Shown: in pieces, positions 33,149 through 60,358 of the stretch | Position numbering within the stretch: position 1 is the stretch's first letter | How the letters are laid out: each line of letters starts with the position of its first letter | NCBI GenBank assembly: GCA_026874595.1 | Contig: CM049306.1 | Location: 388,019-452,018 of the forward strand | Source: Sipunculus nudus | Taxonomy: Eukaryota; Annelida; Sipuncula; Golfingiida; Sipunculidae | Direction: 5' to 3' | Length of the DNA: 64,000 nt | Made by a program: the position numbers and the translations under genes | The notes under the pieces: model-generated | Told to the model about the DNA's origin: nothing | Seen by the model: only the letters and a program-made list of their open reading frames with translations | Database searches by the model: none

Positions 33149-33565
33149 GCAGACCATCATACTTACAAAGTTATGAGAACAATGCAGACCATCATACTTA
33201 CAAAGTTATGAGAACAATGCAGACAATCATACTTACAAAGTTATGAGAACAATGCAGACCATCATACTTACAAAGTTATGAGAACAATGAAGACCATCAT
33301 ACTTACAAAGTTATGAGAACAATGCAGACCATCATACTTACAAAGTTGAGAACAATGCAGACCATCATACTTACAAAGTTATGAGAACAATGCAGACCAT
33401 CATACTTACAAAGTTATGAGAACAATGCAGACCATCATACTTACAAAGTTATGAGAACAATGAAGACCATCATACTTACAAAGTTATGAGAACAATGCAG
33501 ACCATCATACTTACAAAGTTATGAGAACAATGCAGACCATCATACTTACAAAGTTATGAGAAATG
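33149..33565 (-). repeat. 35-bp minisatellite containing the exon 5 splice donor, about 12 copies
   Basis: Each unit, read on the minus strand, contains TTCTCATAACTTT followed by GTAAGTATGATGGTCTGC. The first part is the last 13 nt of RAF exon 5, and GTAAGT is its donor site. The unit nearest the exon is the real junction, and the rest extend into intron 5. One unit has a 2-nt deletion, and two have GAAG in place of GCAG. Reading through shifts frame and reaches a stop within 13 codons. Confidence 0.93.
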
Positions 33566-33655
33566 CTAGATCTGGCAGGGAAATGTTCCTTTAACTCCAC
33601 AGATATTTCTTCATCTGCAAGCTCTGCTATATCTGTATTCCATGACACTAATTTT
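33550..33655 (-). CDS. BRAF: RAF kinase exon 5-equivalent (end of the Ras-binding domain)
   Basis: This 106-nt exon lies between the acceptor TTATTTTCCAG and the donor GTAAGT. The first base is the third position of a codon begun in exon 4, and the exon ends after a complete Phe codon. Both phases match human BRAF exon 5. The frame contains S-W-N-T-D-I, then D-E-E-I-S-V-E-L and ends S-H-N-F. Human BRAF has G-W-D-T-D-I, G-E-E-L-H-V-E-V and T-H-N-F in these positions. It is one codon longer than the human exon. It encodes the last part of the Ras-binding domain and the link to the C1 domain, which should start in the next exon but is not in the window. No stop or frameshift is present. The alignment is from memory of the family, without a database search. 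Confidence 0.9.
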
Positions 33656-33736
33656 CTGGAAAATAAATCATGGTACAAGTATATTAACACTGTATATATA
33701 TTCAATCAATCATAAAAAAAACAATCAGTAAATGAA

Positions 33737-34134
33737 CAAGGGATCCATGGGTCTTGGCCCTCAGCTGAAGTTTGAAAATTTTGCAAATGCAAAATATTCT
33801 ATTGTAATGTTTTTCATTTATTTAAGCATATGAAAAGCTAAGAGGAAAGGAAACTTGGTTATAGTTAAATTCTAAATATATGATTGCAAAAATAATACTC
33901 TTACAAGACTGTCATGAAGAAAAACAGTAAAAGTTTTGAGATACTGTGATGCATATGAAAAATTTACAGATGGAGGCAAGTGGACAGGATGGACTGACAC
34001 CTTTATTACACTCTCACAGGAATCATGCATTTAAGTTTATATCAAAGCCTTTTATTTTTAGCATATCCTTTTTTTACATTAATTGTTTTTATCAGATTCA
34101 TTTTTTTTAATTTACAAGTTTTTTAAATTTGTAA
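33737..34134 (-). mobile_element. CAAGGG element, G type, left part
   Basis: It starts CAAGGGATCCATGGGTC at 33737. The following TTTGAAAATTTTGCAAATGC matches the copies at 61075 and, more distantly, 55391. It is cut at 34135 by the next element. Confidence 0.7.
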
Positions 34135-35230
34135 CAAGGGACCCATGGGTCACGGCGCTCAGCTTAATGTGACAGATATAATTGTATCACCACTGTTGTA
34201 TGTAGGCCTGTAAGATTTCAACTTGACAGATGTAATTTTTTGTATTAATTAAGTAGTTGAGCGGAATAGTAATACAGAAGTATCAGTATTTCAAATATGA
34301 ACAAGAATGTGTGTCTAAAATATTGCATTAGGAATGACCAGATGTTGTAAATTGCAGAAGGAAGTGGAGATTTGCAAGAATAAAAATACACATTTAAATA
34401 ATCAAAATAATTATGGAAAAATAGAAAACTGATATGTTTTGGGAAGCAGTTGTTGATGAATGGGCGAGGAATCAGAATGTCTCAAAAAGTTTCTATAGAG
34501 AAGAAATGGTAGATTAGGCTATGAGAAGTTGCCATGTTTTATCTGAACTGAAGAATGGGGGATTGTTGCTAATAATATCTTGTGATCTGACCATGTATTT
34601 TCTAATGTTGAAACTGAAGCCTTTAGCAGTTAGTAAAAACAAGATCTATGGTATTTCCATGGTCATTGGTTGGTTCTCTGACTAGTTGTTGACATTTAAA
34701 GAGTTGACATAATTGTGTCAATTTGGGTGTTATATATTATATTAGAAATGTCAATACTTAAATCACCCATGATCACTATAGGCAGGTTGAGGTCAACTTG
34801 AAAGAATAAAACTTGGAGTTCAGAGAAGAAGTTACTCATGGGAGATGCGGGTGACCTATAGAGGAAAACAATCTGAAGTGACTGAGTTTGAGTGTGAATA
34901 TACAGAAGAGATGACTCAAAATCTGGTGTTGTGTGGTGGTGAAGGGTTACATGGGGACTCAGCTGTTCATGTATATAAATGGCTAAACCATGAGGTGGTC
35001 TTTTGTTTGTTGTTCCTCTGACAGCTATTTGATCATTTCTGATAAGTTTGTAATGAGGAGAGAGATAGAAAAACAAAGAAAATCACTTTGATTCCCATTC
35101 TACTGAGGCAGAAACATAGTGAACGAATGTTTGCATTAGATCCTCATTTTTTTAATACATCAATTTTTTGTTAAGGGAAATTTTGCCCAAAATTTATAAA
35201 TTGTACAATACATTTACAGTATACTGTGGT
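34135..35230 (-). mobile_element. CAAGGG element carrying the largest EEP remnant
   Basis: It starts CAAGGGACCCATGGGTC at 34135. It is the copy closest to a coding parent: a minus-strand EEP domain fragment lies at 34560-35076, ending toward the CAAGGG terminus. This places the CAAGGG end at the 3' side of the coding strand. The right boundary is unclear; after about 35210 the sequence no longer matches the family. Confidence 0.65.
34696..35076 (-). pseudogene. EEP endonuclease domain fragment of a Helentron-like element
   Basis: This 126-codon minus-strand frame has the order expected for an endonuclease/exonuclease/phosphatase domain. It has a block R-P-P-H-G-L-A-I-Y-I near residue 27, a core strand V-F-L-Y-R-S-P near 69, and I-V-I-M-G-D-L-S-I-D near 99, where G-D-F-N is usual. 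The Asn of G-D-x-N is replaced by Ser, so activity is doubtful. Beyond its stop the homology continues leftward to about 34560 with the CQQL and DH blocks in other frames. The N-terminal third is missing. In Helentrons this domain sits at the C-terminus of the Rep-helicase protein; no Rep or helicase part is seen here. A non-LTR retrotransposon origin is the main alternative. Confidence 0.65.
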
Positions 35231-35399
35231 TGGCTTTGAATTGACAGGGCTCCATTTTTGTGCTCAGGCAATTTTTCATAATTTCACGGGGTTTAATTTT
35301 CGCGATGGGGCATATAGTTATAATTTGATATAAACGACAAAATAGTTATAAATTCTCTATTACACAAAGTTATTAGTATCTGCTTATCGCCTCATTAAC

Positions 35400-36340
35400 C
35401 ACGCTCATGGCCCATGACTGTTTTTGGTTAGCTAATTGACGGGGGTTTCCCGGTTTGGGTCAGAGTTAATTACAAGAAGGCCCTCCCCACAGTTCACCTC
35501 TCAGCGCAGGTGTGATAAATAGTAATGCTTTGGTCAAGAAAACGTGTTAGTAATCTCAGGAAAACTGGCCCCGTCTTGTTTAAACAAGCTCCCTATGTTG
35601 AGGGTATTTTTCCTTGGAATGAGTAAAAATTTATGCTCATGTTTGCTCAAATTACAACAACTGTCACTGCTCGGACCTGGCGATGCCGCTTCAAAGGGGC
35701 ACTGGTTTCATAGCTTGACCATTACATATCAATATAAATAGGGCCCTACACATCACCTTGATCATATCAAGTTCGGATTACGTAAATGAAACATTGTTCA
35801 ATGGATATTACAAGTTGGTTAAGGAAGGGCCCATCCCTGAAGCAGCCGTGCACAGAAGGTCTGCCTGATCTCGTGAGTGTGAATGTGAAGTAAGAGCAGA
35901 GTTGTTCCAAGCGGCCAATGATCAGATCGACCGACAGCCAACAAAGCGTTTCAAGTGGGGAGAATACAAGTAGCTCGACCAAGACAAACGGCTTGCAATC
36001 GCGAAGTCTGTCATTGAAATCAGACCAGCCAAAACTGCCAGGAAGTACGGGATCAGTGTATCAACAGCCCGGTCTATCAAGAATCGTTAACTTCAAGTGA
36101 AAAGAAGTGGAAAGGAGCCGAGCACCCTGCCCCGTCTGGCAAGAGGCCAAGTCTGCAAATTGGGAGACCTTGACTTATGTAAAGTGATTTTCTTAACATT
36201 GACACAGAACTGATGTGTATTTTGTAAAGTTTTCTTATATTTTTTAACAGTAACTGTGCAGAACTGATGTATTTTGTAAAGTTATGTAATATACTTTCTA
36301 ATGAATAAATTTGGAACTGTGAATCACAGTCTGTGATATC
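35400..36340 (+). pseudogene. Decayed transcription unit with an HTH-like frame
   Basis: This GC-richer stretch has a TATA box (AATATAAATAGGG, about 35735), an ATG at 35803 opening a 30-codon frame (starting M-D-I-T-S-W-L) and an AATAAA at about 36303. A second frame at about 35910-36130, interrupted by stops, reads K-R-F-K-W-G-E-Y and then A-I-A-K-S ... A-R-K-Y-G-I-S-V-S-T-A-R-S-I. That resembles a transposase-type helix-turn-helix. The order fits a relic of a DNA-binding transposon protein or short gene. The identification is by pattern only, and a solo LTR with a chance frame is possible. Confidence 0.35.
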
Positions 36341-37232
36341 ATTTTGCTGTTTTCAATGACCAATACAAAACAAGGGACCCATGGGTCATGGCGCTCAGCT
36401 GTTATATATGATAAAAAATATGATTTAGAAAGGAGGCACATGCTTGTTTTGTGTGGAAAAAAATATAAGCTGTATTATGAGTTGTGGGTGTTTAGCTTAT
36501 GTATGATTTTGATAGTATCTTTGGAGACGGGGAAAAGGATTGATTTCATTTATTTTATTAACAAAAAGTGAGAGCTATTGTCATACAGATTTTGACTTGG
36601 CCATATAACTTACAAGCAGAACATATATAAGAGTTTAACTTTTTATCAAAAATGATTACAAATTGTCCCAAATATAATTTTTATTAAAAATAATAAGAGA
36701 ATCGTATGATTTTTTAAAATAAAATACAACTGAAATGATTATTAAAATAATATCAAAGAATATATTCATGAATGCATTCATGAATGCATTCATGAAAACA
36801 TTTTGAAAGTATTTGCACTGGTATTCATATACTTTCATTTTTACCTGAATTCCCATTCTTATGCAAGAAATTTTATAATGGAGTACATATTCATATTCGC
36901 ATTCAAATACATTTGCAAAGTATTTGCACCATGTCTGGTATTTATTCAGTTTTCACCCAACAATGATGTTGAGAATCCAGAATATACAAAATTCACACAT
37001 TTAAATAATGATCATAAGTACCTGGTTTTATGGCTTTTACTCATATTAAAAAAATAAATGTAATATATTCATTTTTGACTAATTTCACATCAATGTACAC
37101 ACTAGACACAGCAGGAATCTAGATTAATATTATCAACTGCATCTTTGTCTATCATTAATTTCCTTCATATGATCCCTAATGATTAGTAATGAATAATATG
37201 ATTTATTTTTTAATCATTAAAATTGAACTGAA

Positions 37233-39136
37233 CAAGGGACCTATGGGTCACTGTGCTCAGCTGACGTTAACCTTGAAGGTGAAAATCTAAAATAATATCT
37301 AATGGAGATAAAGTGTAAGAGGAAGAGGTAATAAAGGCCATGGTTGGTTTATATGATTGGTTTGTATTGATGAGCAAGAAATTGTTGCAAAAAATATTTT
37401 GTGACCTGACCATGTGTTTCCTAATGTTGAAACTAAAGCATGTGAGCAGTTTGTGAACAAATGATCTGTACTATTACCATGATCATTAGTTGGTTTTTTT
37501 ATTAACTGTTGACATTTCAGTAGTTTACACATTTGTTCAATTGAATCTATTTTTTTGTATAATATATATTATTGAATATACATGTATTTTATTTATGAGA
37601 TGTATACAGTTGAAATATAGCTAATTAACAACATAAAACAGGGCAAACAAAGCCTGATCTCAAATTCTGCTGAGGCAGGAAAATAATGAAGAAATGTTTG
37701 TATTAAATCCTGATTTTTTTATCACATCAATTATTTTCTAATTTAAGTTTATATTTCTATACATTTCCAATTTAACATATATATCTGAATATAAAAGTTG
37801 ATTCATAATTCTCAATTGCATCATCATAAATCTCAATCTTGTCAGATAACACCACAACATGCATACAAATGTTTATTTATTTTTTACCACAAAAATATAT
37901 CTTTTAAATCTGCAAAACAATAAATATCTAAAAATAATACTGGATTTAGATTTCACAATTTTTAATTGTGTCTTTATTTATCCATAATGTGCTTCATATT
38001 ATGGATAAATATAATAATTTAAGCATACTGATGGGTTCCTTTATATTTGTTAAAATCATTTAAAAGAAAATTGAATTCTTTAAAAATGCTACATTACACA
38101 ACATTGCATCATTTGATTACACCTTGAATTATTTTTTCAAGGAAAGTTTTTGCATATCGGAGTGGAAACAGCATTACAATTACGGAGATACAGTGAAAAC
38201 AATAACAATTACTGCATAACACTTGGTGGGTTGGGTTTGTGGGGGGGGGGGGGGAGGGGGGGGGGGTGATTGTGGTGGTGATATGAGAATAACTGTACAC
38301 CTGTCACAGCAGGGGATCTCCCCCAGTGACTGTAACAAATCAGAAACCCTGGCATAGCTGACTTCCAGTGACCTGGAGTGGGACCCTGCATCTGTAATCA
38401 AAGCAAGTGACTACAGTAAAAAATCAATAACTAGCTCAATTTTCAAGGTTTTATTTCCAAATTTCAGATTTAGACAAACTAAATATTTATGTTTACATGC
38501 TGTGAAAATTAAATCAATGGTGCTTACAGGAAAAAAACGTGCCATGGTCAAAGTTGGGCAAAATTTAAGGTACTGATTTTTTTTTATGCTAATAACTTAA
38601 AAAATTTACAAAATTCAGATCTTATTTTGGGTAAACAATTGAATCTTAATTAAAAATAGTTATATACTTGAAAAAAAAGACTCTAGTTTCAAAATTTTTC
38701 ATGTTAAGTGAGTTATTATTTTTCCTGATTTTTTACAAAGTCCAATATGTTTGGGCCCACAACTTAAAGAATTTATACTTTACAGACTTAATTTCTGGCA
38801 TGTACATAGGAACTATATAGAGGAATATATATATGGTAAATATGAGGAAAAACAGATGAGTGGTTTTGATATTAGGCAGTCCTGAAGTGTGAAAATAGGA
38901 TTTTAATAAAAAATTGAGGTTTTTCCTTAATTTCTCAAAGGAACGAAGTCGCAAAGACCCAGTTTTCGGCTTGGTAGGAGATCTTGGGGACATCTAACAT
39001 TATGCTGAATTTTGGATTCCTAGGTCTTACGGTTTCAAAACGTGCCACATCTACGGACGGACGGACGGACAGACAGATGGACGACGGACAATGGGCCACG
39101 ACTATAGCTCAGATGACTTATAGTCAGCTGAGCTAA
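37233..39136 (-). mobile_element. CAAGGG element C2, nested in A'
   Basis: It starts CAAGGGACCTATGGGTC at 37233 and ends GTCAGCTGAGCTAA at 39136, and is nearly identical to C1. The empty site is preserved in element A at about 14925-14945 (GAACTGAAAAATACCATAGG). The filled site carries two extra A residues and nothing else, as at element A. A long poly-G run lies at about 38239-38268. Confidence 0.92.
37299..37532 (-). pseudogene. EEP endonuclease remnant (element C2)
   Basis: This is the 77-codon partner of the frame at 631-864, with the same altered S-G-H-K block. The two copies differ at a handful of residues. Its open frame probably reflects youth of the copies and does not show function. 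Confidence 0.5.
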
Positions 39137-40018
39137 AAATACCATAGGTGACTCCATGGTGTTATTTGGAATATGTGACACATGTGATTCTACATTTGTA
39201 AAAGCAGTGTTGCATCACTAATACGTTTACCCAGACAAGGCTGTAGGGACCAGACATGACTGGTCTGGAGGTTCAAAATTTAAATACATTAGAGCCTCAG
39301 GAAAACTTCAATAACTAGAATAATTTTTAAGCTTTTACTTTCAAATTTCAGAATTTAACACATTATATCTATATATATACCAACTGTAAAAAGGAAAATC
39401 AAATGTTCTTACAAAAAAAAAAAATGTGCCATGGTAAAACTGGGGCAAAATTTAAGGTACCAATTTTATATTTTTGCCAATATTTGAAAAAAAAAAAAAC
39501 AGATTTTGATCTTATTTTTGGTATACAAATAAAGTTTAATTAAAATTGTGTTAAAAAAATTAATTGTGTTAAAATTGTTGTGAAAAAAGTCCCTAGCCTT
39601 AACACTTTTTGTCTCCATTATGTTTGGGCCCATAACTTTTTTAAATTATATAATACGGACTATATTTCTGGCATGTACATAGGAACTATATAGAGGAATA
39701 TTTATGGTATATATGAAGAAAACCAGATGAGTGGTTTTGATATAAGGCAGTCCAGAAGTGTGAGAATAGATTTTTAAAAAAAAATTGAGGTTTTTTCTTA
39801 ATATCTCAAAGGAATGAAGTCCTATTGACCCCATTTTTGGCATGGTAGGAGAATTTGGGGACATCTGACTGTATGCCGAATTTCAGATTTGTAGGTCCAA
39901 TGGTGTCGAAACGTGCCAGTTTCAGGACAGACATCCGGACGGACAGACAGACGGACGGACAGAAGACGGACAATGGACCACGACTATAGATCAGATGACT
40001 TAAAGTCAGCTGAGCTAA

Positions 40019-42690
40019 TAAAAAAATCTGGAAATATTAGTTAAAATATCAGAATTCTAAGTTGCAATCATTATTTATCCAGAGTTAAGCTCACATCAGT
40101 CATATCATGCATACACATATATTTTATTATTTTTATATCACAAATGTTTAAACTGAATTTAAAAGAAAATAATGCCACAACATGGTATCTTCAAGATTAT
40201 TCCTTGAATCATTATTAAAAAGTTTTGTACATTGGAGTTTTCAGTACATGCTTAATTTTATTCACCCAAATAAAAAATTCAGTAAATTTAATAAAATAAA
40301 AAAAAATTAATAAATAAACAAGGGACCCATTTTATTTAGATTAAAACCGCACCCACACTTTGCCCAAATTCCAGGTGAGACATCGCGAGGGGCTCAAATA
40401 CTAAGAACCCCCCTTTAAAACCGCACCAACTTTCGCTACGGAATGATTTGACAAAAGACCATCAAGCTATCATCTAGAAATGAACACGCGTAGGTTGCGA
40501 CTCGGTCATTCCTGTCCACTTTTAAATTCCTTTGGCATTTTATTTAAACACATCATAACACTTTTTTGCAGGGTCACTCAAGCATGAAGTTTGGGAAGAC
40601 GTAAGGGCCGGTGAACCTCTGCCTGTTTATACAGATTTTATATTCTGTGCCGTATTCTTGTTTGTTACTTATTTGTCATTATATTTTGGAAAAAATATTC
40701 TGCTGATCCATTTCAAGTCACTGTATATTTTATTCTAAAAATTTCTGATGAAAATACCATTTCCTGGAAATACCCGGAAGATTCAAATCATTTTCATACC
40801 GGTTACTTCGGTATTATCATCGTCACATCGTACGTTGACATCGCTCCAAGTCACAATTTGCTGGCGCGTTTGAAAACATTGCTGGTCAACTTAACTAAAT
40901 ATCAAAGTAATTGGAGTTACCTTGTCGAGATACGCACGTATAGGAAACATGATGCTTGATAACGAGTGATTTTAAGGTCAAATTAAATTGGCCAGTCGGG
41001 GCAAGCAAGTTTTTTTTCCTGAAGAAAGTTTCCGTCTGGGGAGCCATTTTGTCAAGGCAGTGTTCACGCAATGCACGCTGGGATGAAATAGGTGGCTGTT
41101 CTGTTTACCACCCACCGCGTACAGCCGTTCAAAATATTCTTAACAGAATACTGGGGCATTTCAGCACATGGCGGCACTCAAACTTGATTTTAAAACGATC
41201 GTCTGCCATTGTGTGACTCCTTACAATGTCAGCTTTTTATTCATTTTACGTTTTAAACAAATAATCATTGCTAAATAATGCCGCAAATGGGTTTAAAGTA
41301 GGCTTTTATTTCAATTTTGCTTGACCATGCCCAACAAAGTGGGCCACTGTGTGTTACAGCAGGGTTGTTGTAAATGTATTATTTGGTGACAATTACCAAA
41401 ATTTTATAACAAGTTATATATCACACGAAAACTTATCAGCAATATTTAATTTATAAATAACAAATAATCGTAAATAATACATTTACACACGGCTCCCATG
41501 CATGCGAGACTGCTGCTAAGAACGGCCTTCGAAAGTTGCAATATTATCGCCCACTCGCCGGCCCCAAAACAATGTCTGTCAGGAAGATATTCAGCAAACC
41601 CTTCTAGTATAAACCACACAGTGCTTTCAGGAAATCAACCTGATTTCAAGATTTTGAATTTCTTGATTAAACCGCGGTTTTAAGTGGAGATTTTACGGTA
41701 CACACAGTTGGTTGAATGAGGGACAAACAATATCATTGTGCTAATTACTATCCCAGCTATAATCTATTACTGAAATAAATATACAATTTCACACCTGGTG
41801 AAGTTTTTACTCTTCTGAAGAAAGGAATTCCTTATCTGATTAACATCCACACTTTCATAGCAATACACCACTTGGTGGACACAATTAAATGTGCACTTTA
41901 ATCATTGTAACCCTGGTGTTACAAAACAAAATCCAAAATAGTGTTCGGATGATATGGGTTTTTGATACATGATAATTATTCAAATGTTATCGCGATATCA
42001 CGGTATATCGCGATATTTTTAATTATATATAATGACATTAATAAGCCATCAATAATGATATTTATAACCACCACCTTTAAAGTTTTGACTTTATACAAGG
42101 GGTTAAGTATTAATATCATTTATACCTATTGTGCCAGTACCACAGAATTACTCATTAAGTGATGCAAGTTGCATGAAGGTCCTGCAGGTGTGCAAGCTTG
42201 AGGCGCAGAAGTCCTGCCCCCATTGTCGAATCACTCTTGTCAGAACTTTCCATCAGTTTCCGGAGAATCCCAATGAATTTTCGGAGACCATGTCATACCA
42301 ATCATGGCTAAATATACCATCCCAATTTTATATGGCAAAATATGAAACCCGTATGGAATGTTCGATTCAATGGTGACACTTTTATGTTGACATTTTCGTT
42401 CCATGCAATAAAAGCATAAATGTGTATTTATTGCTCTTTCATTATAATGTTATTTTCTCCTGGAATTCTCAAGCTTTTGTCCGCTCTGATTCATCCTGCT
42501 ACTTCCGGACATTTCTGACTAATCCCGAAGCCTGGGGGGGGGGGGGGGGGGGGTGTGCAGGGCAGAGGTAGGTGAAGCCTGCCAGTAGTGGCCAAGCTAA
42601 GCCAAGGCTGGAGGGGGTTACATAATGCAAGTGAAGGCTGTACTACTAGGTGGGCTAGATGTAAACAACACTTGACATGCTGTATGAAAA
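40019..42690. other. Unassigned, mostly unique stretch
   Basis: The part 40019-40318 is AT-rich and resembles C-type bodies. A CAAGGGACCCAT terminus at 40319-40330 stops abruptly. Sequence with TTAAAACCGC motifs then runs from about 40345 to 41690, with similar motifs in inverse orientation at the far end (AAACCGCGGTTTTAAG), possibly a decayed MITE. Open frames at 40956-41216 and 42131-42376 are not recognised. The latter includes C-P-H-C-R but lacks a partner motif. A poly-G run lies at 42533-42553. Confidence 0.4.
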
Positions 42691-44054: not shown

Positions 44055-44147
44055 AAATGAAGGAAATCTGAGATGGTGATGTGGGGAGCCCTGGTTGATT
44101 TTGCATGGAATGACCCCCCTGTGACCTTCAGACATGGGGTAATAGTA

Positions 44148-47394: not shown

Positions 47395-47740
47395 AAAATA
47401 TAGTGGGCGCCACCACTTTTCGGGAACTGACCAAACTAGTCATGGTCAATATTTAAGGCATGATTCATGACAATCCATGCATTAATTATCAAGATATTGG
47501 AGGTTTTGTATTATATTTATGATTATTCTGGGGGGTACTTTCAAGCCCCATAGCTCCAAGGATATAGGTCACAGTGAGCTAATTTCAGGGTTCCAAGGAG
47601 ATTTTTTATTGAACTCCTTGGATGTTAACTTAGAAATTTCTAGGACCAGCAGTTACGATTTGTGCCCTACTAACAGACGGCTGGACGACAGACAAAGCGC
47701 CATTCCTATACCTCAGTTGACTAACAGTCAGCTGAGCTAA
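47395..47740 (-). mobile_element. Right end of a CAAGGG-type element (H segment)
   Basis: The segment contains a GGGCGCCACCACTTTTCGGG start, CCCCATAGCTCCAAGGATAT, and ends CAGTCAGCTGAGCTAA at 47740. It matches 10206-10580 and is found inverted at 63421 onward. Confidence 0.65.
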
Positions 47741-48562
47741 AAATTAGTGGCAAACAAGAATACTGTACTTCATAAGAGGCCTATAAATTTGTTTATTCGC
47801 CATATTCCACCTGTCGTGGTAAAATGTTTACATCTACAAGCAGATTTCCCCCTCTAACAGTATTTAAATGTGTACATATATCCTTGAATATATAAAAGCT
47901 ACAACAAGAGATTATACATTAGTAAATGACTGGCCATAAGCATTCATGGATGAAGGTTGGTAGAACATGACAAGCTGGCGAGAACATTGGCTGTTCGATT
48001 TGGAGGTACATATATCAGATAAATAAATAAATTATCTATAAAATAACCAACTAAATTTAAACTTTTATAGAGATAATATAGTGTTCTAAATTAACTATAT
48101 TAATTTTCTTATACCTTTTTTAAAAGCAATTTCCATAGAAACCGAGGCTGTCAAACTGACATTAAGAACGGTTGAACGGTGATACCAAGTCTGTCCAACA
48201 GACTTCGCTACAAAGTCTCATCCTAAATAATACATTCATTTTAATCTCGTCATGAGTGCTGATATGCTTCAAAATTGACATTTTAACGTGACAATTTGTA
48301 TGCAAATAACTATAACATTGTATAGGAACATTTATACCATACAATTGATACAAAAATTCTGTGACTTCTATGAGAATTCCTCTGTGGTGTGCTTTATCAC
48401 CTTTTATCGCCCAAAAGTGTACCGTGTCTGGACGGAGAAGGCTTTTCACAGTCCATTTCAGATAAACTATCTATTTAAGGCCACCGCCCAAGTTTGAAAA
48501 ACGTCAAGATTTTTTATTTTGAATTAGTCTTTAAGGCCACAGTGATAAAAAACAGGATTTAC
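47741..48562. other. Unassigned unique intronic stretch
   Basis: The stretch is AT-rich without a repeat match in the window. The minus-strand frame at 48162-48449 (95 codons) is not recognised and has no convincing splice context. It borders the 54-bp array. Confidence 0.4.
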
Positions 48563-50712
48563 TGTACTTTGGTTTACACCTATAGACCCCACTACTGTCA
48601 ACGCTCAGCTATCATACTTACGTGGGTTTACACCTATAGACCACACACTTGCCAATGCTCAGCTCTAGTACTTACTTTTGTTTACACCTTTAGACCACAC
48701 AGATGTCAAAACTCAGCTCTCGTACTTAATTTGGTTTACACCTATAGACCATAGACATGTCAATGGCAGCTCTTGTACTTACTTTGGTTTACACCTATAG
48801 ACCACACAGCTGTCAATGCTCAGCTCTCATACTTACTTTGGTTTACACCTATAGATCACACAGCTATCAAAGCTCAGCTCTCATACTTACTTTGCTTTAC
48901 ACCTACAGACCACACAGCTGCCAATGCTCAGCTCTCATACTTACTTTGGTTTACACCCATAGACCACACAGCTGTCAATGCTCAGCTCTCATACTTACTT
49001 TGGTTTACACCCAGAGACCACACAGCTGTCAATGCTCAGCTCTCATACTTAATTTGGTTTACACCTTTAGACCTCAAAGCTGTCAATGCTCAGCTCTTGT
49101 ACTTACTTTGGTTTACAGGTTTACACCTATAGACCACACTTCTGTCAATGCTCAGCTCTTGTACTTACTTTGGTTTACAGGTTTACACCTATAGACCACA
49201 CTTCTGTCAATGGTCACCTCTTGTACTTCCTTTGGTTTACACCTATAGACCACACAGCTGTCAATGGCAGCTCTTGTACTTACTTTGGTTTACACCTATA
49301 GACCACACTTCTGTCAATGCTCAGCTCTTGTACTTACTTTGGTTTACACCTATAGACCACATTCTGTCAATGGTCACCTCTTGTACTTCCTTTGGTATAC
49401 ACCTGAAGACCACACATTTGTCAACACTCAGCTCTCATACTTGCTTGAGTTGACTCTTATAGACCCCACTACTGTCAATGCTTGACTCTTGTACTTACTT
49501 TGGTTTACACCTATAGACCACACAGCTGTCAATGCTCAGCTCTCATACTTACTTTGGTTTACACCTATAGATCACACAGCTATCAAAGCTCAGCTCTCAT
49601 ACTTACTTTGCTTTACACCTACAGACCACACAGCTGCCAATGCTCAGCTCTCATACTTACTATGGTTTACACCCATAGACCACACAGCTGTCAATGCTCA
49701 GCTCTCATACTTACTTTGGTTTACACCCATAGACCACACAGCTGTCAATGCTCAGCTCTCATACTTAATTTGGTTTACACCTTTAGACCTCAAAGCTGTC
49801 AATGCTCAGCTCTTGTACTTACTTTGGTTTACAGGTTTACACCTACAGACCACACTTCTGTCAATGGTCACCTCTTGTACTTACTTTGGTTTACACCTAT
49901 AGACCACACAGCTGTCAATGGCAGCTCTTGTACTTACTTTGGTTTACAGGTTTACACCTATAGACCACACTTCTGTCAATGGTCACCTCTTGTACTTCCT
50001 TTGGTTTACACCTATAGACCACACAGCTGTCAATGGCAGCTCTTGTACTTACTTTGGTTTACACCTATAGACCACACTTCTGTCAATGCTCAGCTCTTGT
50101 ACTTACTTTGGTTTACAGGTTTACACCTATAGACCACACTTCTGTCAATGCTCAGCTCTTGTACTTACTTTGGTTTACACCTATAGACCACACAGCTGTC
50201 AATGGCAGCTCTTGTACTTACTTTGGTTTACACCTATAGACCACACAGCTGTCAATGGTCACCTCTTGTACTTACTTTGGTTTACACCTATAGACCACAC
50301 AGCTGTCAATGGCAGCTCTTGTACTTACTTTGGTTTACACCTATAGACCACACTTCTGTCAATGCTCAGCTCTTGTACTTACTTTGGTTTACAGGTTTAC
50401 ACCTATAGACCACACTTCTGTCAATGCTCACCTCTTGTACTTCCTTTGGTATACACCTGAAGACCACACATTTGTCAACACTCAGCTCTCATACTTGCTT
50501 GAGTTGACTCTTATAGACCCCACTACTGTCAATGCTTGACTCTTGTACTTACTTTGGTTTACACCTTAAGACCACACAGCTGTCAATGCTCAGCTCTCAT
50601 ACTTACTTTGGTTTACACCTTAAGCCCATACTGCTGTCAATGCTTGACTCTCAAACTTACTTTGGTTTACACCTATAGACCACACAACTGTCAACACTCA
50701 GTTCTCGTACTT
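48563..50712 (-). repeat. 54-bp minisatellite containing the exon 4 splice donor, about 39 copies
   Basis: On the minus strand each unit is 44 nt matching the end of RAF exon 4 (GAGCTGAGCATTGACAGC ... AGGTGTAAACCAAA) plus GTAAGTATGA from the intron start. Some units have a 9-nt insertion (63 bp). Larger blocks of about 0.7-1.05 kb are themselves duplicated: 48785 onward recurs at 49503, and 49393 onward recurs at 50448. The unit nearest 50661 is the exon itself. Because 54 is divisible by 3, long open frames appear on the plus strand (up to 216 codons); these are by-products. Confidence 0.95.
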
Positions 50713-50764
50713 TCATCCTCTTGGCCAAAGCTTCTCGTAATGTAATTCCTGGTGTCACCTGTAC
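50661..50764 (-). CDS. BRAF: RAF kinase exon 4-equivalent (core of the Ras-binding domain)
   Basis: This 104-nt exon is the same length as human BRAF exon 4. It is flanked by the acceptor CTGATGTTGTAG and the donor GTAAGT, starts in phase 0 and leaves two bases for the next codon. The frame reads V-Q-V-T-P-G-I-T-L-R-E-A-L, then A-K-R-M-K-V-R-E-L and S-C-V-V-Y-R. It aligns without gaps to the human segment containing C-G-V-T-V-R-D-S-L and C-A-V-Y-R. The Lys, Lys and Arg in A-K-R-M-K-V-R correspond to CRAF Lys84, Lys87 and Arg89, which contact Ras. A weaker donor (GTGTAAAC) lies 12 nt inside the exon. The first part of the exon is single copy; its last 44 nt are also the unit of the adjoining array. 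No stop or frameshift is seen. Confidence 0.92.
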
Positions 50765-51298
50765 CTACAACATCAGAAATAATATGGTACACTCAAATAA
50801 AACACAAGTAACCCTTGGGTTATCCTAATTAGTAATCTAGTTGCCTCTGCCAGGAGTGTATGCATTCATCCCCAATTGTGTGTTTTTGTATGTTTGTTCA
50901 CAACCATCTCACACAATCAGTAACAGAATCTCATGAATTTTTCAGAGCATTTCAGGAAGGGCAAACTGATGAACCAATTAGAATTTGGTGTGGATCTAGC
51001 ACATGATCCAGATTCACCAAAGTCATCAAGGAATATTCACTAATGTACAGTCACTTATGCATGAATGAACCTGGAATATGGCCAGAATAAGTGAATGAAA
51101 AACACAGGTTGGGGAGCATCCTACAATAGGGAACCCCCACATCACAGAGGCTTGCATTCCTTTAAATGTAGACTACTAATTAAATACCGTTTTATCAATA
51201 CAGCTGATAGGAACTGAAAAGGAACTAATGTTGCACTGATGAAGTTGTACATGAAATTATTTTATAAATTCCAAGCATACAGAAAAGAGTGGTCCTAA

Positions 51299-51517
51299 CA
51301 AAAGGTCCATGGGACATAACACACAGCTGAATCTGACACACAACTGAAGGCCATAGCACATAAATGTACATAATAATTTACCAGAATGTGTCTGTATATT
51401 GATAAGTTCTAACATCCTAGTTTAATGGTTTTACCATTTTTGCCCTGTTATGTTAAGCATTAGTCTGTCATTCTGAACAAGAGCCTAAGAGGTCTATTAT
51501 TCATTCTGTGCAAAAAT

Positions 51518-51520
<3 letters not shown>
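51299..51520. mobile_element. Diverged CAAGGG-type terminus
   Basis: CAAAAGGTCCATGGGACATA and CACACAGCTGAATC keep the spacing of the family's left end. The following sequence resembles 2440-2790 (GAATGTGTCTGTATATT, CATTCTGTGCA). It is old and truncated. Confidence 0.45.

Positions 51521-51600
<80 letters not shown>
51521..51600. repeat. (AT)n microsatellite, 80 bp
   Basis: An uninterrupted TA dinucleotide run. The following 51601-52354 is non-repetitive, with no recognisable feature. Confidence 0.97.
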
Positions 51601-51602
<2 letters not shown>

Positions 51603-52354
51603 CCCCTCCCTATGGGCCTTCTATCTGCAAATTAGAGGAAAAAGATATAGACTACTAAAAGTCTCGGGTTCACAAAAATCCTAGATTTCTGAAGATCTGA
51701 CATTGATGATAGTCAAGGTCACCACTTTTCAAACACTTCCAAGATTTTGGTTGAAACATTTCACGAGGCAAATTGAGTGGTTCAAAAGTCAGTGTAACAA
51801 AATATTTCTATTTCTGCTGAATTTACCTTGACAATGAAGATCAAGGTCATCAGTTTCCATACAGTTTCACAACGGTATATATATATCCACATCAGTAAAT
51901 AATGAAATAACAGTATTAATGTACATGTTAAGGCCTAGCTCCTGATCAAAACAAAAGTCCAATCAGAATCTGAATTGAATAAATAAACAGAATCTGGTCT
52001 GGACAAGAGAAAAAGGTACTTTTGCTTACCAAGCATTTGGAATATCATAATGTTGATTTCATAAAAAGATCATGCAGTAAACCAAGTATACCAATAAGGT
52101 CAGGAGATCCATGAGGTGCACTAGATATCAATGAATTTTATGAAATAAGAAAGTACACTCTTAGCTCTTAAAACCTCATCATTCATCACTGTGTCTGGTA
52201 TGACCGTTGTTGTAATGATCCAGCATGCACAATACACAGCTTCACTTGTTATTATCCATACATAAACTCCACATTGACACACGTGGCTCGTTCGGTTGGA
52301 TTTGCTAGGATGTGAGAACAGGTATATCAATATATTCAGGGGCCCCAGGGTAAC

Positions 52355-52485
52355 CTAAGCCAGACCTGGCATTCCATCAATCCAGTTCAACCTTAATGCA
52401 GCCAGCTGTCTGACACTGGAAGACAAGCACTCTCTGGCATTATTCCAAATCTGCTTGCTCCTGCTTCCCACTATCTGCACCTGTG
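52355..52485 (-). other. Open frame abutting the 34-bp array
   Basis: On the minus strand GATTATACACAG is followed by about 41 open codons (V-Q-I-V-G-S ... N-W-I-D-G-M-P-G-L-A, then stop). The AG could be a splice acceptor, and the array unit contains the same CATACACAG. I do not recognise the peptide and see no RAF counterpart. It may be an alternative exon or chance. Confidence 0.25.
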
Positions 52486-54247
52486 TATAATCTGACCAAC
52501 ATCTAGAGGGCTGCCTGTGTATGATCTGACCAACATCTACAGGGCTGCCTGTGTATGATCTCAACAACATCTAGAGGGCCGCCTGTGTATGATCTGACCA
52601 ACATCTAGAGGGCTGACAGTGTTTATGATCTGACCAACATCTACAGGGCTGCTTGTGTATGATCTCAACAACATCTAGAGGGCCGCCTGTGTATGATCTG
52701 ACCAACAGCTAGAGGGCTACCTGTGTATGATCTGACCTTGATCTACAGGGCTACCTGTGTATGATCTGACCAACATCCAGTGGGCTGCCTGTGTATGACC
52801 TGACCAACATCTAGAGAGCTGACTGTGTATGATCTGACCTTGATCTACAGGGCTACCTGTGTATGATCTGACCAACATCCAGTGGGCTGCCTGTGTATGA
52901 CCTGACCAACATCTAGAGAGCTGACTGTGTATGATCTGACCTTGATCTACAGGGCTACCTGTGTATGATCTGACCAACATCCAGTGGGCTGCCTGTGTAT
53001 GATCTGACCAACATCTAGAGAGCTGACTGTGTATGATCTGACCAACATCTACAGGGCTACCTGTGTATGATCTGACCAACATCTAGAGGGCTGCCTGTGT
53101 ATGATCTGACCAACATCTAGAGGGCTACCTGTGTATGATCTGACCAACATCTAGAGGGCTGCCTGTGTATTATCAGACCAACATCTACAGGGCTGCTTGT
53201 GTATGATCTGACCAACATCTAGAGGGCTGCCTGTGTATGATCTGACCAACATCTAGAGGGCTGCCTGTGTATGATCTAACCAACATCTAGAGGGCTGCCT
53301 GTGTATGATCTGACCAACATCTAGAGAACTGACAGTGTTTATGATCTGACCAACATCTAGAGAGCTGACTGTGTATGATCTGACCAACATCTACAGGGCT
53401 ACCTGTGTATGATCTGACCAACATCTAGAGGGCTGCCTGTGTATGATCTGACCAACATCTAGAGGGCTACCTGTGTATGATCTGACCAACATCTAGAGGG
53501 CTGCCTGTGTATTATCAGACCAACATCTACAGGGCTGCTTGTGTATGATCTGACCAACATCTAGAGAGCTGACTGTGTATGATCTGACCAACATCTACAG
53601 GGCTACCTGTGTATGATCTGACCAACATCTAGAGGGCTGCCTGTGTATGATCTGACCAACATCTAGAGGGCTGCCTGTGTATGATCTGACCAACATCTAG
53701 AGGGCTGCCTGTGTATGATCTAACCAACATTTAGAGGGCTGCCTGTGTATGATCTGACCAACATCTAGAGAACTGACAGTGTTTATGATCTGACCAACAT
53801 CTACAGGGCTACCATTGTATGATCTGACCAACATCTTGAGGGCTGCCTGTGTATGATCTGACCAACATCTAGTGGGCTGCCTGTGTATGATCTGACCAAC
53901 AGCTAGAGGGCTACCTGTGTATGATCTGACCTTGATCTACAGGGCTACCTGTGTATGATCTGACCAACATCCAGTGGGCTGCCCGGTATGATCTGACCAA
54001 CATCTAGAGAGCTGACTGTGTATGATCTGACCAACATCTACAGGGCTACCTGTGTATGATCTGACCAACATCCAGGGGGCTGCCTGTGTATGATCTGACC
54101 AACATCTAGAGAGCTGACTGTGTATGATCTAAAGGCTAGAGGGCTGCCTGCGTATGATCTAAAACAACATCTAGAGAGCTGACTGTGTATGATCTGAAAG
54201 CTAGACGGCTGTCTGTGTATGATCTGACCAACATCTAGAGGGCTACT
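52486..54247. repeat. 34-bp minisatellite, about 52 copies
   Basis: The unit is CTGCCTGTGTATGATCTGACC followed by AACATCTAGAGGG. A 102-bp higher-order unit (three monomers) repeats at about 52735, 52836 and 52938. The minus strand of each unit includes GATCATACACAG, which has the form of a splice acceptor. The 102-bp period creates a 121-codon minus-strand frame that I do not regard as a gene. Confidence 0.95.
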
Positions 54248-55060
54248 CACAGACATTTTCGAGTGTTATGAATAAGTATCTATGTAAATATTATATGAGC
54301 TGGTATGGATATAGTCTATATAGATACAGCCATAATTCTGTAATAGCTTAGAGAACCAACAATACATTATAATATTATTATAAGAAGAATGGAAAATAGA
54401 ATCAAACGATCAAGCTCAAGTTGTCTGTTTCTGTTTAAATAACACTGCAGAAAATAAAATAATCTTCGTCTATGTTCAAAATTGATTACCTATGAATAAA
54501 ATATAATATCCTTTCATGGTTTTGTATTTTACATCCCAGTGCTTAACAGATTGCTGATTGATTAGTTGTTCGATACAATCGCTGCCTGAATCTAACACGC
54601 ATCTCCTCTGACCTGTTTGGACTATAGTTATTTGCAGATATGGGCATGGCATATAATTCCAAGTTTATTGCCAGCATTTTAATTGTCTGAAGAAACAATT
54701 GTGAAAACACTGCAAATACTCTGAAGACCCATGACCTTCGTCAATGGTATATTGGCTTAAAGGCTTTGAAGTTCACCTGAGTTCGCCAGCCTTTTGTAAC
54801 CTGTTCATATTCCCTTACAGCTGCCCGCAGTCTTTTGCATGTTTGCTGGCTTGTGCAACCACCAAATGTTGTTGTTGAGCAATTCTAAAACAGACTTGGA
54901 TGTCAAATACACAGGGGTCATTGCCATTGATAAAACCTCAATTGATTTCACAATACTCCTGCCTATAGCACTCATGCTTAATTGCCAATGAATGAAGCTC
55001 ATTATAACTTAGTGTGGGATTGAACTTGCAGCATTTAGGTTATTGTAAAAATTTAAAAAA
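54248..55060. other. Unassigned unique intronic stretch
   Basis: There is no repeat match in the window. A minus-strand frame at 54805-55002 (65 codons) ends near a possible donor (GCAGCTGTAAGG). I could not relate it to RAF or any other family, so it is left unassigned. Confidence 0.35.
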
Positions 55061-55390
55061 AAGTGGGTTAGGTGACCTTAACTTCTGACCAGGTAACCTC
55101 AAATCTACAGATTTCCTTACTTAAGGCAAGTAAGCCATGTGTGAAAGATGGAAAATTTGGGATGAAAAGTTTTATATACAGTGCATCAACAATCTTTTTA
55201 AAGATGTGGCTCCTGTGACCTTCACCTTTGATCTCTGGACCCTGAAAATCAAAATGTTTCTTGCTTAGGTGGCAGGTCATAAAGAAATCAAGTTTGAAGC
55301 CAATCTGTCTATCCAAAGCAGAATTACCATCCATAAACTAATTTGTGAGTGGATGGGCCCTGTGACCTTGACCTTTGACCTCAAAATAAA
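55061..55390. repeat. GTGACC repeat, partial copy
   Basis: GTGACCTTGACCTTTGACCT near 55362 and AGGTGACCTTAAC near 55068 belong to the family at 45938-47290. The CAAGGG-type element at 55391 interrupts it. Confidence 0.8.
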
Positions 55391-58300
55391 CAAGAAACCC
55401 ATGGGTCATGTCGCTCAGCTGAATTTTGGAAAATATTAGTAACTGCAAGATATTTTTATTTCTTATGGTTTTTCATGTATATTACCTTTTGAAAAGCTAA
55501 AAGAAAATGGCCCAGCTAAAATGAAACTCTGTAAATTATAGAATAATGTTATTCACACCTAGGCCCAGCCAACTTTAAGAGACATGAATGAAATGCTACA
55601 AAGTATTTATATCTTCTTAAATCTTGTCAGTTAGCACTTACATAAGATCTTAATATTTTATCACATTCGAATATTAGGATTAAATTCCTGAACATTTTTT
55701 CTTTACAAAAATCAAAATTGTCCAAGTCTCAACAAAAAGAATTTATTTAACATTAAAATTATAAGCTTCATCTTGTTTATTAGTCCTGTATATTGAATGG
55801 GTGGGTGGGGGGAGGGGTCTCCCTTGTTACTGCTCGTTGCTGAAAAAAATGTTAAGATTCATCTAGTTCATAGTACAGGTCTGTCAAATTAATGGGTGGG
55901 GGGAGAGAAAAAGGCTCCCTGTGGTATTAACTACAGACAGCCTGATCAAGCTCAACTCAGTGGAGAGAGGGCTTGCTCTGGTGATGGGATTACATAACAT
56001 CAGCCTGGGGAGCACAGAGAGCTGCACTGAATGACCTACAATGACCAAAGTGGACAACTTGACAATATAAGGAAATATAACAAGAGCCTCCAAAAAAATT
56101 CAATAACTAGCAAATGACTACAATAGAGCCTCCAGAAAAAAAAAACAATAATTACCCTAATTTTCAGGCTTTTATTTTCAAATTTCAGATTTAAACAAAT
56201 TAAATACTTATGTTTACATGCTGTGAAAATTCAATCAATGGTACTTACAGGAAAAAAACTGGGTATAACCCGGGTAAAAACCCGGGTGGTCATTGCTACA
56301 GAGGGTCATAGCTACAGGTCACTTTGATTTACAGGGCTAAATTTAAGGTACTGATTTTATTTTTATGCTAATAACTTAACAAGGCCTACAGGCCTAATGC
56401 AAACCTGTGCAAAGTTTGGGAGTATGAATGGAGGTTTATTTTTTAAATTTAATATTGATCCTTTTAAGTTCTGCATATCTACCTTATTCATTATGATTTC
56501 AGCAAAATGGAACTTTTGGACCAGCAAGTTTCAGACTAGGACATTTTAAAACTAGAATATGGGTAGTCGACAAGCGACTATGTGTATCCGCAGAAATTAG
56601 AGTGGGACGGGTGAAGTGAGGCATGGATTAAGTGGCAAGGGGAATAGAGTGAGGTGTGTTGCATATTAGCATGGATGTCTGCAGCTTAAACGTGAATGTA
56701 GGTGGTGCCACCTGTCATAAAATCGAGAAAATTGTCCATGATGTATAAACCTGCAAAATTTCAGGTGGATAAGTCAAACCACTTCTGAGATATGAGTGAT
56801 TTTATCCCAATCAGATGAACAGATCGACGGTGTTCATAAGTGGTTGCAGGTGGCACCACCAGTTTTGCTTATGATGAAGAGCTATGTGAGATCTATACAC
56901 ATGCAAAATTTTGGCCCAATAGGTCAAATGGTTCCCGAGATATGAGCTTTGATGTATGCAGAGTAAACGTGAACGTAGGTGGCGCCACCTGTCATAATAT
57001 CAAGAAAGCTGTCCTGGATGTATAAACCTGCAAAATTTCAGGTGGATAAGTCAAACCACTGCTGAGATAGGAGTGATTTTATCCCAAGACAGATGAACAG
57101 ATGGACACTGTGCATAAATGGTTGCAGGTGGCGCCACCAGTTTTGCTTATGATGAAGAGCTATGTGAGATCTATACACATGCAAAATTTTGGCCCAATCG
57201 GTCAAACGGTTCTCGAGAAATGAGCTAGGATGTCTGCAGAGTAAACGTGAATGTAGGTGGCGCCACCTGTCATAAATCCAGAAAGCTGTCCAGAATGTAT
57301 AAGCCTGCAAAATTTCAGGTGGAAAAGTCAAACCACTGCTAAGATATGAGTATATTATTCCAAGGCAGATGAACAGATGGATGATGTGCAAAAATGGTTT
57401 CAGGTGGCGCCACCATTTTTAGTGTATGTTATAAAGCTATCAAAGGGCTACATTTGTGCAAAATTTTTAGCCTGATGGGTCAAACGGTTCCCGAGATATG
57501 CGGTTTATGTGTGGAAACAGACGCACAAGTTGACGCTGGGCAGAGGTCAACCAAAAATGAGGGCGCAGCAGTTCACATATGACCTGATGATAAACCCGAT
57601 TGACTTAAAATGCAAACCAAGTTTTTTCAAACAGTTGAAAGATAAAGTTCCAATAATCTGGGAATTCTGCATCTAAACATTGTGTCTAGACGTCTAGACG
57701 CTGTGTCTTGATGTCAAGAAACATTGTCTAGACACCCCCCCCCCACCAGGTCAGTTGCCATGGTGATGTCTGGACCCCACCTGTTTGTACTGAGTGACCT
57801 CTTGACTTGGCTGCTGAAACTCAGCATGTTGTCAAATCTGTTTTCAAATACAGAAAGCCTTTTCAATTGGCTACAATGCTTTTTCAAAACTGTATTTACC
57901 CAAATTATTCTTATAAAACTGGCAGAACCCTACCACAGAATAATTCTTGTAAAGTTTAAACCAATCAGCTTAACAGTTTCATCATAAATCAGTGTATAAG
58001 CTAGAAGAGTTTAAAATTACATTTTCGCTTGTAAAAAACACATCAATGTAGGTGGCACCGCTAATACCTCAAAATCAGATATGACATATGTGACAAACAT
58101 TGGTATAAAATTTGGTGATTATAGCTCTAGCTGTTTCTGAGATTTTAATTTTAGTGTGCTTTTTTGAACAGATGACTAAGTTCAACCTCCTGTAACTCGG
58201 CCAAAAATCTACGAACTGGAACCATTTGAACAAACTTGAGAGAGATTGTTCCAGGGATCATTTCTTTGAAATATAGGACAATTTGGCTGGACAGTTTCAG

Positions 58301-58898
58301 AGAAGAAGATATTTAAAGGTTTTTAAGCTTTTTCTTTATAAAATCTAAAAAAACGCAGATACCCAATAATAAGCTCCAGGGCGCCAAGTTTCACATGTGA
58401 CTAATTCTTACATGTAATTTGGAGCTGCTAGCTCTGATGGTTTCTGACTTACAGCCATGGATGGCGGAAGCCAGCCCTGGACGGCGGACAGCAGACGGCT
58501 GAAGACGGACGGACGCTGTGCCATCGCATAAGCTCACAGGTTCGATAAAAATGAACAAAATTCAGATCTAATTTCGGGTAAACAATTTAATCTTAATTAA
58601 ACATAGTTATATACTTGGGAAAATAGGCTCTTGTTTCAAAATTTTTCATGTTAAATGAGTAAACATTTTTCCTGATTTTTTACAAAGTCCATTATGTTCG
58701 GGCCCATAACTTAAAGAAATTATACTTAACACACTTAATTTCTGGCATGTACACAGGAATTGTATAAAGTAATATTTATGGTAGATATGAGGAAAAACAG
58801 ATGAGTGGTTTTGATATTAGGCAGTCCTGAAGTGTGAAAATAGGTTTTTAATAAAAAATTGACTATAGCTAAGTTGAGTTAATAGTCAGCTGAGCTAA
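55391..58898 (-). mobile_element. CAAGGG-type element hosting F3
   Basis: The left end is CAAGAAACCCATGGGTC at 55391. The right end at 58898 reads AGTCAGCTGAGCTAA. A C-type body resumes after F3 at 58549 (CAAAATTCAGATCTAATTTC), in register with 56330-56378. Confidence 0.65.
56380..58548. mobile_element. F-family element F3, cleanest copy
   Basis: It opens CAAGGCCTACAGGCCTAATG at 56380 and closes CACAGGTTCGATAA at 58548. The flanks rejoin to ATAACTTA plus AAAAATGAACAAAATTC, and the uninterrupted C-type sequence is at about 38590. Two adjacent 278-bp modules (from about 56840 and 57118) carry GGTGGCGCCACC palindromes. A GGACGG run lies just before the right end. Confidence 0.85.
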
Positions 58899-58975
58899 AA
58901 ACAGGGTATAACCCAGGTAAAAACCCAAGAGGTCATTGCTACAGAGGGTCATTGCTACAGATTACTTTGATTTAC
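58899..58975. repeat. Short dispersed repeat with ACCCGGGT palindrome
   Basis: ACAGGGTATAACCCAGGTAA ... GAGGTCATTGCTACAGAG ... ACTTTGATTTACA is also present at about 56266-56334, where AACCCGGGTAAAAACCCGGG forms an inverted pair. The 58976-59161 remainder of the intron shows no feature besides the exon 3 donor. Confidence 0.6.
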
Positions 58976-59161
58976 ATTAAGGTGTGCGTGTTTTCTGGCA
59001 ATATTTCACAGATTCTGGGCTGATAAAAGGATCTTTATCATTCCATTGATACCAAGACCTACCCATTATGTCTTTCTCCATATGCTGAGTTGGCCAGGCA
59101 ATAATTTATAATTTATTTGTCTTGTATTTTCCCAAGAGCTTGTACCATGAATTTTACTTAC

Positions 59162-59464
59162 TGTTGTATGTTGCTGATTGGGTAGATAGGCCTTGACTGT
59201 TGCCTTCAAAGTAGGCCCTCGAGGGGGTGACCGGGGTGGGGCATCAGGGCTGCCTTGTCCTGGCTGAGGGCTGGAATTTGCTGCATAGTCAGTTAGTACA
59301 CTAGTGCTGTCACTGTTAGATATGCCATCATCAAATTCTCCCAGACTGGTAGGGGAGAGGGCTTGTGGAGGGGTTGGTGATGCTCGCTCATTACTGATTT
59401 GTTCCTGTAGCTCCTGCTCCTTAATCTGCAGGTCATGCAACTGATTGGTCAGCCCCTGGTACTC
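59162..59464 (-). CDS. BRAF: RAF kinase exon 3-equivalent (coiled lead-in and first Ras-binding strands)
   Basis: This 303-nt exon (101 codons) lies between the acceptor ATATTAAACAG and the donor GTAAGT, phase 0 at both ends, as in human BRAF exon 3 (88 codons). Residues 1-19 align without gaps to the human exon start: Y-x-x-x-T-x-x-L-x-x-L-Q-x-x-E-Q-x-L, a coiled stretch. A Ser/Pro-rich linker follows (about 25-85), longer than in human. The end, K-A-T-V-K-A-Y-L-P-N-Q-Q-H-T-T, is the first hairpin of the Ras-binding domain. In CRAF numbering Asn64, Gln66 and Thr68 are kept, Arg59 is Lys and Arg67 is His. The first 29 nt are also the exonic part of the adjoining minisatellite. The protein would be the MAPKKK that couples Ras-GTP to MEK at the membrane. 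Confidence 0.92.
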
Positions 59465-60358
59465 CTGTTTAATATAAAATGCAACTGATTGGGTCAGCCC
59501 CTGGTACTCCTGTTTAATATAAAATGCAACTGATTGGTCAGCCCCTGGTACTCCTGTTTAATATAAAATGCAACTGATTGGTCAGCCCCTGGTACTCCTG
59601 TTTAATATAAAATGCAACTGATTGGGTCAGCCCCTGGTACTCCTGTTTAATATAAAATGCAACTGATTGGGTCAGCCCCTGGTACTCCTGTTTAATATAA
59701 AATGCAACTGATTGGTCAGCCCCTGGTACTCCTGTTTAATATAAAATGCAACTGATTGGTCAGCCCCTGGTACTCCTGTTTAATATAAAATGCAACTGAT
59801 TGGGTCAGCCCCTGGTACTCCTGTTTAATATAAAATGCAACTGATTGGTCAGTCCCTGGTACTCCTGTTTAATATAAAATGCAACTGATTGGTCAGCCCC
59901 TGGTACTCCTGTTTAATATAAAATGCAACTGATTGGGTCAGCCCCTGGTACTCCTGTTTAATATAAAATGCAACTGATTGGTCAGCCCCTGGTACTCCTG
60001 TTAAATATAAAATGCAACTGATTGGTCAGCCCCTGGTACTCCTGTGTAATATAAAATGCAACTGATTGGTCAGCCCCTGGTACTCCTGTTTAATATAAAA
60101 TGCAACTGATTGGTCAGCCCCTGGTACTCCTGTTTAATATAAAATGCAACTGATTGGTCAGCCCCTGGTACTCCTGTTTAATATAAAATGCAACTGATTG
60201 ATCAGCCTCTGGTACTCCTGTTTAATATAAAATGCAACTGATTGGTCAGCCCCTGGTACTCCTGTTGAATATAAAATGCAACTGATTGGTCAGCCCCTGG
60301 TACTCCTGTTAAATATAAAATGCAACTGATCAGTCAGCCCCTGGTACTCCTGTTTAAT
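59436..60358 (-). repeat. 44/45-bp minisatellite containing the exon 3 splice acceptor, about 21 copies
   Basis: Each unit on the minus strand is TTTTATATTAAACAG (intron end with AG acceptor) followed by 29 nt of exon 3 (GAGTACCAGGGGCTGACC...). The unit touching 59464 is the real junction. About one in four units has an extra base (45 bp). The first unit upstream is 45 bp and open, so use of the next acceptor would add 15 codons in frame; later units shift frame. Confidence 0.95.

Follow-up and report, generated by a model that had tools for sequence, protein, structure and literature searches.

Minisatellites spanning exon-intron junctions in a predicted RAF kinase gene and at other sampled exon borders of the same genome

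Border arrays in other animals and in the RAF locus

Minisatellites lying across exon-intron borders have been described in lancelets as 'mirages', in the globin, Adh3, TnC and PGBD5 genes (PMC3087553, PMC3902484), of which TnC and PGBD5 were named as further cases (PMC3902484). The same papers report that regular splicing goes undisturbed by them (PMC3087553, PMC3902484). Like the RAF arrays studied here, the lancelet mirages of these papers have a unit across the junction, affect both 5' and 3' borders and include many copies with splice motifs. Their unit sizes (10-72 bp in Adh3, 60 and 108 bp in PGBD5, about 150-160 bp in the globins) overlap those found here, whereas the copy number reaches 39 here against 6 and 3 in two lancelet haplotypes of BflGb6. 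The lancelet mirages of these papers are also single-gene cases, while here 15 of 424 sampled exon edges carried such an array. The sequence-only reading of the locus had known of no described example, a statement that, judged by these papers, fails for border arrays as such.

Genes of human segmental duplications contain variable internal tandem repeats, including minisatellites that average four copies of 30-bp units, and such repeats can, like the RAF arrays, sit at an exon-intron boundary, where they can affect splicing (PMC2812944). These human cases are described there as recent primate paralogs with changed introns, whereas no second RAF locus was found here among the 69 matches listed (71 of 162 candidates scored). 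According to the Rogers model, as cited in PMC3087553, introns are gained by tandem duplication of segments containing AG/GT. That model shares with the present arrays the tandem duplication of splice signals, but here the copies lie in an existing intron and no new intron is evident. The potato RdRp is reportedly a related case of intron gain by tandem duplication. Searches of an open-licence library listed no mollusc report and no genome-wide border count, and border arrays are absent from passages of PMC2206037, PMC3862624 and PMC4732748, the latter two being mollusc papers.

In the window, that is, the whole 64,000-nucleotide stretch of DNA that was analysed, minus-strand sequence showed one array at each of RAF exons 3, 4 and 5, starting inside the exon edge and continuing into the intron (Table 1). 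In each array the outermost copy forms the actual edge of the exon, with all remaining copies on the intron side. The unit of the exon 3 array carries an acceptor, for the most part TTAAACAG, followed by 29-30 nt from the start of the exon, and this array reaches into intron 2. The exon 4 unit includes about 41-45 exonic nt, GTAAGT and flank, and the exon 5 unit the last 11-13 exonic nt, GTAAGT and flank, these arrays reaching into introns 4 and 5, respectively. TRF found no array at the remaining three borders of these exons. Wraparound alignment identified 20, 38 and 11 junction copies beyond the exon-attached one in exons 3, 4 and 5, so that the about 21, 39 and 12 copies given by the sequence-only reading were borne out together with the TRF values. 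Its remark that three of the four large minisatellites start on these exons also holds, for arrays of at least 10 copies with a unit of at least 20 bp. The fourth is situated off any recognised exon border, and tblastn found no RAF exon within it. With a looser cut-off (at least 2.5 copies, unit at least 20 bp, score >150; TRF), three of nine window arrays were on RAF borders.

Table 1. Predicted RAF exons and large tandem arrays, in positions of the window
Feature	Position	Strand	Description
RAF exon 3	59162..59464	minus	303 nt; AG before 59464, GTAAGT from 59161
Acceptor array, RAF exon 3	59435..60360	minus	44 bp x 20.9 copies, 97% matches (TRF)
RAF exon 4	50661..50764	minus	104 nt; first part of Ras-binding domain; splice borders AG/GT
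Donor array, RAF exon 4	48560..50712	minus	54 bp x 39.1 copies, 83% matches (TRF)
RAF exon 5	33550..33655	minus	106 nt; second part of Ras-binding domain; splice borders AG/GT
Donor array, RAF exon 5	33148..33562	minus	35 bp x 11.9 copies, 97% matches (TRF)
Fourth large array	52480..54244		34 bp x 52, intron 3 (TRF)

The array-bearing exons are assigned to a RAF kinase gene by sequence comparison. Profile search matched PF02196 above the cut-off at C1:438654-438785, which corresponds to exon 4, and when exons 3-6 were joined the RBD scored 80.6 bits and C1 51 bits. A tblastn query that we take to represent human BRAF matched exon 3 (E 1.9e-4) and exon 5 (33657-33547, E 0.001). Collinear C1-domain and kinase exons followed from C1:382.9 kb down to 126.2 kb, and the introns are long, the matched exons spanning C1:126 kb to 447 kb. 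The numbering of exons 3-5 follows what we take to be the structure of human BRAF, with whose exon 3-5 borders the array-bearing borders presumably agree; the human segmental-duplication cases have changed introns instead. Of the 69 listed matches, those outside the RAF locus were taken to be other kinases. The PF02196 profile search of the genome also gave two further RBD matches.

No TRF array touched the profile match in the seven downstream RAF exons, the nearest one having 2.9 copies and lying 92 bp away (L006). The last RAF exon extends to the BRAF C-terminus and therefore has no donor. Altogether three arrays were present at the 19 RAF borders examined, which belong to the exons matched; no match was obtained for exons 1-2 or for the weakly conserved region between the C1 domain and the kinase. 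In DNA searches of the 1.43-Gb assembly with two-unit queries, each RAF array matched its own locus only. On this basis a dispersed mobile repeat was rejected, for a search that omits simple and very common words.

Border arrays in sampled exons of the genome

The sampled assembly comprises 1.43 Gb, lancelet genomes being smaller. The random sample consisted of 160 exons drawn before sequence inspection from 75 Myosin_head and 125 Kinesin matches, the latter being 125 of 126 rows, as one with 15 stops was dropped before the draw. Each sampled exon was taken with 620 bp on either side (226,072 bases, no N). The second sample drew on 89 SNF2 rows, from which 52 exons located in 19 regions were taken for their closeness in coordinates with the sequence unseen; small contigs and the majority of isolated exons were omitted.

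TRF, a k-mer scan and reading identified junction-spanning arrays at 12 of the 160 myosin and kinesin exons (L023, L038, L043, L051, L055, L066, L080, L097, L098, L102, L115, L147) and at three of the 52 SNF2 exons (L168, L176, L181). The pooled samples thus included 15 of 212 exons, or 15 of 424 exon-match edges, with a spanning array, nine at acceptors and six at donors. The edges were taken from the profile matches instead of from annotation, and a number of them are possibly exon-internal. Border arrays are widespread in the genome, at an estimated one in about fourteen sampled exons, a rate that rests on conserved domains of three families with some overlap among the fetched stretches. 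Borders were set by eye, with frame and splice motifs as guides, and this assignment replaced an automatic one that covered 243 of 320 borders and was wrong for L043 and L098. In L023 and L066 the donor was situated about 60-100 bp past the profile match. L051 was counted though weak (2.9 copies, about 70% matches), while the ambiguous L128 and the two-copy arrays at the match edges of L042, L131, L136 and L182 were left uncounted. Arrays close to the border but not spanning it were present in L031, L071, L083, L138, L143 and L163.

In the rule-based count over the 424 flanks, 14 array ends fell at -75..+25 bp as against 10 at +75..+375; per base this is an excess of 4.2-fold (P = 5e-4), in bins chosen after earlier histograms had been viewed. 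This count included only TRF rows with a unit of at least 20 bp, at least 2.8 copies and a score of at least 100, and used the edges of the profile matches. When arrays of at least 1.9 copies were accepted, the numbers were 16 and 12 (4.0-fold, P = 3e-4). Two of the 14 border ends, both flanks of L163, stop just inside the intron.

In the hand-curated count, 15 spanning ends stood against 16 non-spanning ones within 310 bp, a 5.1-fold excess (P = 1.7e-5), or 4.7-fold (P = 1.9e-4) in the random sample only. Because its non-spanning ends include arrays seen twice from neighbouring exons (e.g., the L080 array seen from L064), this ratio is conservative. Arrays with a unit of at least 20 bp, at least three copies and a score of at least 150 covered about 6% of the sequence 100-600 bp from exon matches, and their total coverage did not rise toward the exon, whereas the density of ends did. 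Some non-spanning arrays stop about 15-65 bp outside the match, and part of the pile-up may consequently be formed by arrays halted by exon constraint. Unit G+C was 0.372 in spanning and non-spanning arrays alike, with a flank background of 0.342; G+C preference as the cause of the border excess was rejected on account of this equality. The cause of the 4- to 5-fold excess is either more frequent origin of arrays at borders or their longer retention there.

At the sampled rate of 15/424, at least three arrays would occur at 19 borders with P = 0.03 and at the six window borders with P = 8e-4. At the hand-estimated intronic end density of 1.2e-4 per bp, the corresponding values were 1.3e-4 and 3e-6. 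All these P values are post hoc, the window having been picked for this very feature. The sequence-only reading had called the coincidence very unlikely by chance, and the values place it beyond chance with that reservation; RAF is not special, arrays of this kind being present at 15 of 424 sampled edges in other genes. RAF is taken as a good example, high yet not extreme, and no anomaly, and in a genome with thousands of genes many like it should be expected. Among 11 of the 12 myosin and kinesin exons with spanning arrays (L023 left out) no two belonged to the same gene (P = 1.0), and with seven near arrays added there were four pairs against 2.5 expected (P = 0.23). General within-gene clustering was rejected as the reason for the RAF triple, since the pairs in the sample were not significantly in excess.

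Origin and maintenance of the arrays

The arrays are probably 'mirage'-type minisatellites, derived from junction-spanning duplication and tolerated because the copies are intronic and the exon-attached site still works. A tandem duplication with its unit across the exon-intron junction would later be amplified into an intronic array by unequal exchange or replication slippage. If the exon-attached site is still chosen, a duplication with intronic copies would be nearly neutral, while one inside the exon would alter the protein and be purged. Most inner copies, if used, would disrupt the frame or introduce a stop: an in-frame, stop-free product is predicted for 13 of 127 splice-competent copies in the 13 arrays with a valid frame. 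The test took in neither L051 nor L176 and had no valid frame in L055, L066 and L097, in which the profile match, with a stop in it, began before the exon. The anatomy, the copy counts and the locus-restricted unit matches of the RAF arrays argue for the mirage reading, and so do the like anatomy at the sampled edges and the pile-up of ends at borders. The part concerning tolerated copies is favoured by the reports that lancelet mirages leave regular splicing undisturbed. On the opposite side, plain neutral duplication does not predict the 4- to 5-fold border excess, for which a further cause is needed, use of the outermost site is presumed, and the better-kept six-base splice site described below could hint at selection.

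It is conceivable, although somewhat less than an even prospect, that a genome-wide border process of mutation or retention, independent of that in lancelets, has brought spanning duplications several-fold above the nearby-intron expectation, to about one exon in fourteen. If this is true, RAF, as a heavily affected gene, has spare splice sites by the dozen. The sequence-only reading had suggested a recurrent process creating duplications at exon-intron borders; the recurrence is supported by the arrays in other genes and the excess of ends, but retention gives the same pattern as creation. Chance alone, that is, minisatellite-rich introns in which some arrays overlap exon edges, is quite unlikely. 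The flat array coverage toward the exon and the value of P = 0.03 for RAF at the sampled rate agree with it, but the pile-up of array ends at borders, in both the rule-based and the hand-curated counts, led to the rejection of chance overlap as a full explanation.

The arrays could also be kept by selection, their splice sites acting as backups, as decoys or in recruitment, for instance through extra binding of U1 or U2AF beside very long introns, such as those of RAF. This was judged unlikely from a column test of 14 of the 18 arrays (three RAF and 11 sampled; L051, L168, L176 and L181 left out), in which the P values are rough because copies within an array share descent. AG or GT was the majority core in all 14 arrays aligned, and in the six-base splice site 42 mismatches were counted where 67.9 were expected (permutation P = 0.017), but the core GT/AG had 19 against 22.6 (P = 0.38). 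In RAF exon 3 the mismatch was 0.000 in the AG core but 0.033 in the six-base site, which exceeds the unit mean of 0.010; in exon 4 the GT core, with 0.118, exceeded the unit mean of 0.086; and in exon 5 the GT core had 0.000. Selection would also have to be reconciled with the seven other RAF exons without border arrays. The copies thus give weak and mixed indications of selection for extra splice sites, and the proposal of the sequence-only reading that decoy or backup sites were selected in RAF was not upheld.

Use of the inner copies as alternative sites, producing RAF isoforms at exon 3 or, at exons 4 and 5, unproductive transcripts destined for degradation, appears very improbable. Seven of the 20 exon 3 acceptor copies would extend the exon in frame and without a stop, by 45 nt in the case of the nearest copy, and for this reason some copies may be used. 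None of the 29 copies in exon 4 and none of the 11 in exon 5 was in frame and stop-free, which would suit unproductive transcripts. Lancelet RT-PCR, however, suggests regular splicing (PMC3087553).

The RAF triple as an example

Rather than a new phenomenon, the RAF triple is a striking case of a known, little-studied one that is common in sampled exons of the genome. The new elements are the sampled frequency of border arrays and the surplus of array ends found there. The sample gives a rough rate for one genome, whereas the lancelet cases of the papers cited are single genes. That the excess occurs in unrelated gene families suggests a role of splice borders as hot spots in which tandem duplications arise or as refuges in which they persist. 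Border arrays also provide natural tests of how the spliceosome chooses among dozens of near-identical sites, and of the growth and gain of introns through tandem duplication. Within the exon 4 array there is a block duplication, detected as equal-scoring matches at an offset of 716 bp in the DNA search with two units, which in this one assembly suggests array turnover.

Arrays in RAF intron 3 and positions of array-bearing genes

The 34-bp tandem array in RAF intron 3 contains in its unit ACACAG followed by G, which resembles a splice acceptor, and no exon was recognised there. Judged from its sequence, the array is possibly a border array, with a unit spanning an exon-intron junction, the exon of which has been lost or is unrecognised. 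The RAF gene is situated less than 0.5 Mb from the start of contig C1, and the position of another array-bearing gene, L098, is included in the table.

Locations of the features (C, contigs of the 1.43-Gb assembly)
Feature	Location	Context	Basis
34-bp unit array, 52 copies	window 52480-54244	RAF intron 3	TRF and sequence
RAF gene	window 33148-60360 (border arrays of exons 3-5)	C1	
Array-bearing gene L098	C14:0.43-0.45 Mb		
Myosin exons L163, L083, L066, L078	C9:47.96-48.06 Mb	group	150-kb rule
Repeated myosin-head matches	C2:44849337-44852248	one gene	

Myosin exons on C9 and C2

The myosin exons on C9 were grouped by the 150-kb rule, and in three of the four sampled exons of the group an array either spans a border or ends within about 45 bp of one. 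On C2, a single gene has four consecutive matches to almost the same stretch of the myosin-head profile (approximately positions 109-153), the pattern that alternative versions of a single exon would be expected to produce.

Bacterial-looking contigs

Ten sites of cytochrome-oxidase-type genes were located on small contigs (C60-C62, C66, C72, C74, C75, C89 and C123), nine of them with nearly equal scores, the tenth being that on C123. Based on long open frames and the translation of the C123 site, these genes look bacterial, and the assembly therefore seems to contain several related bacterial genomes, perhaps those of symbionts.
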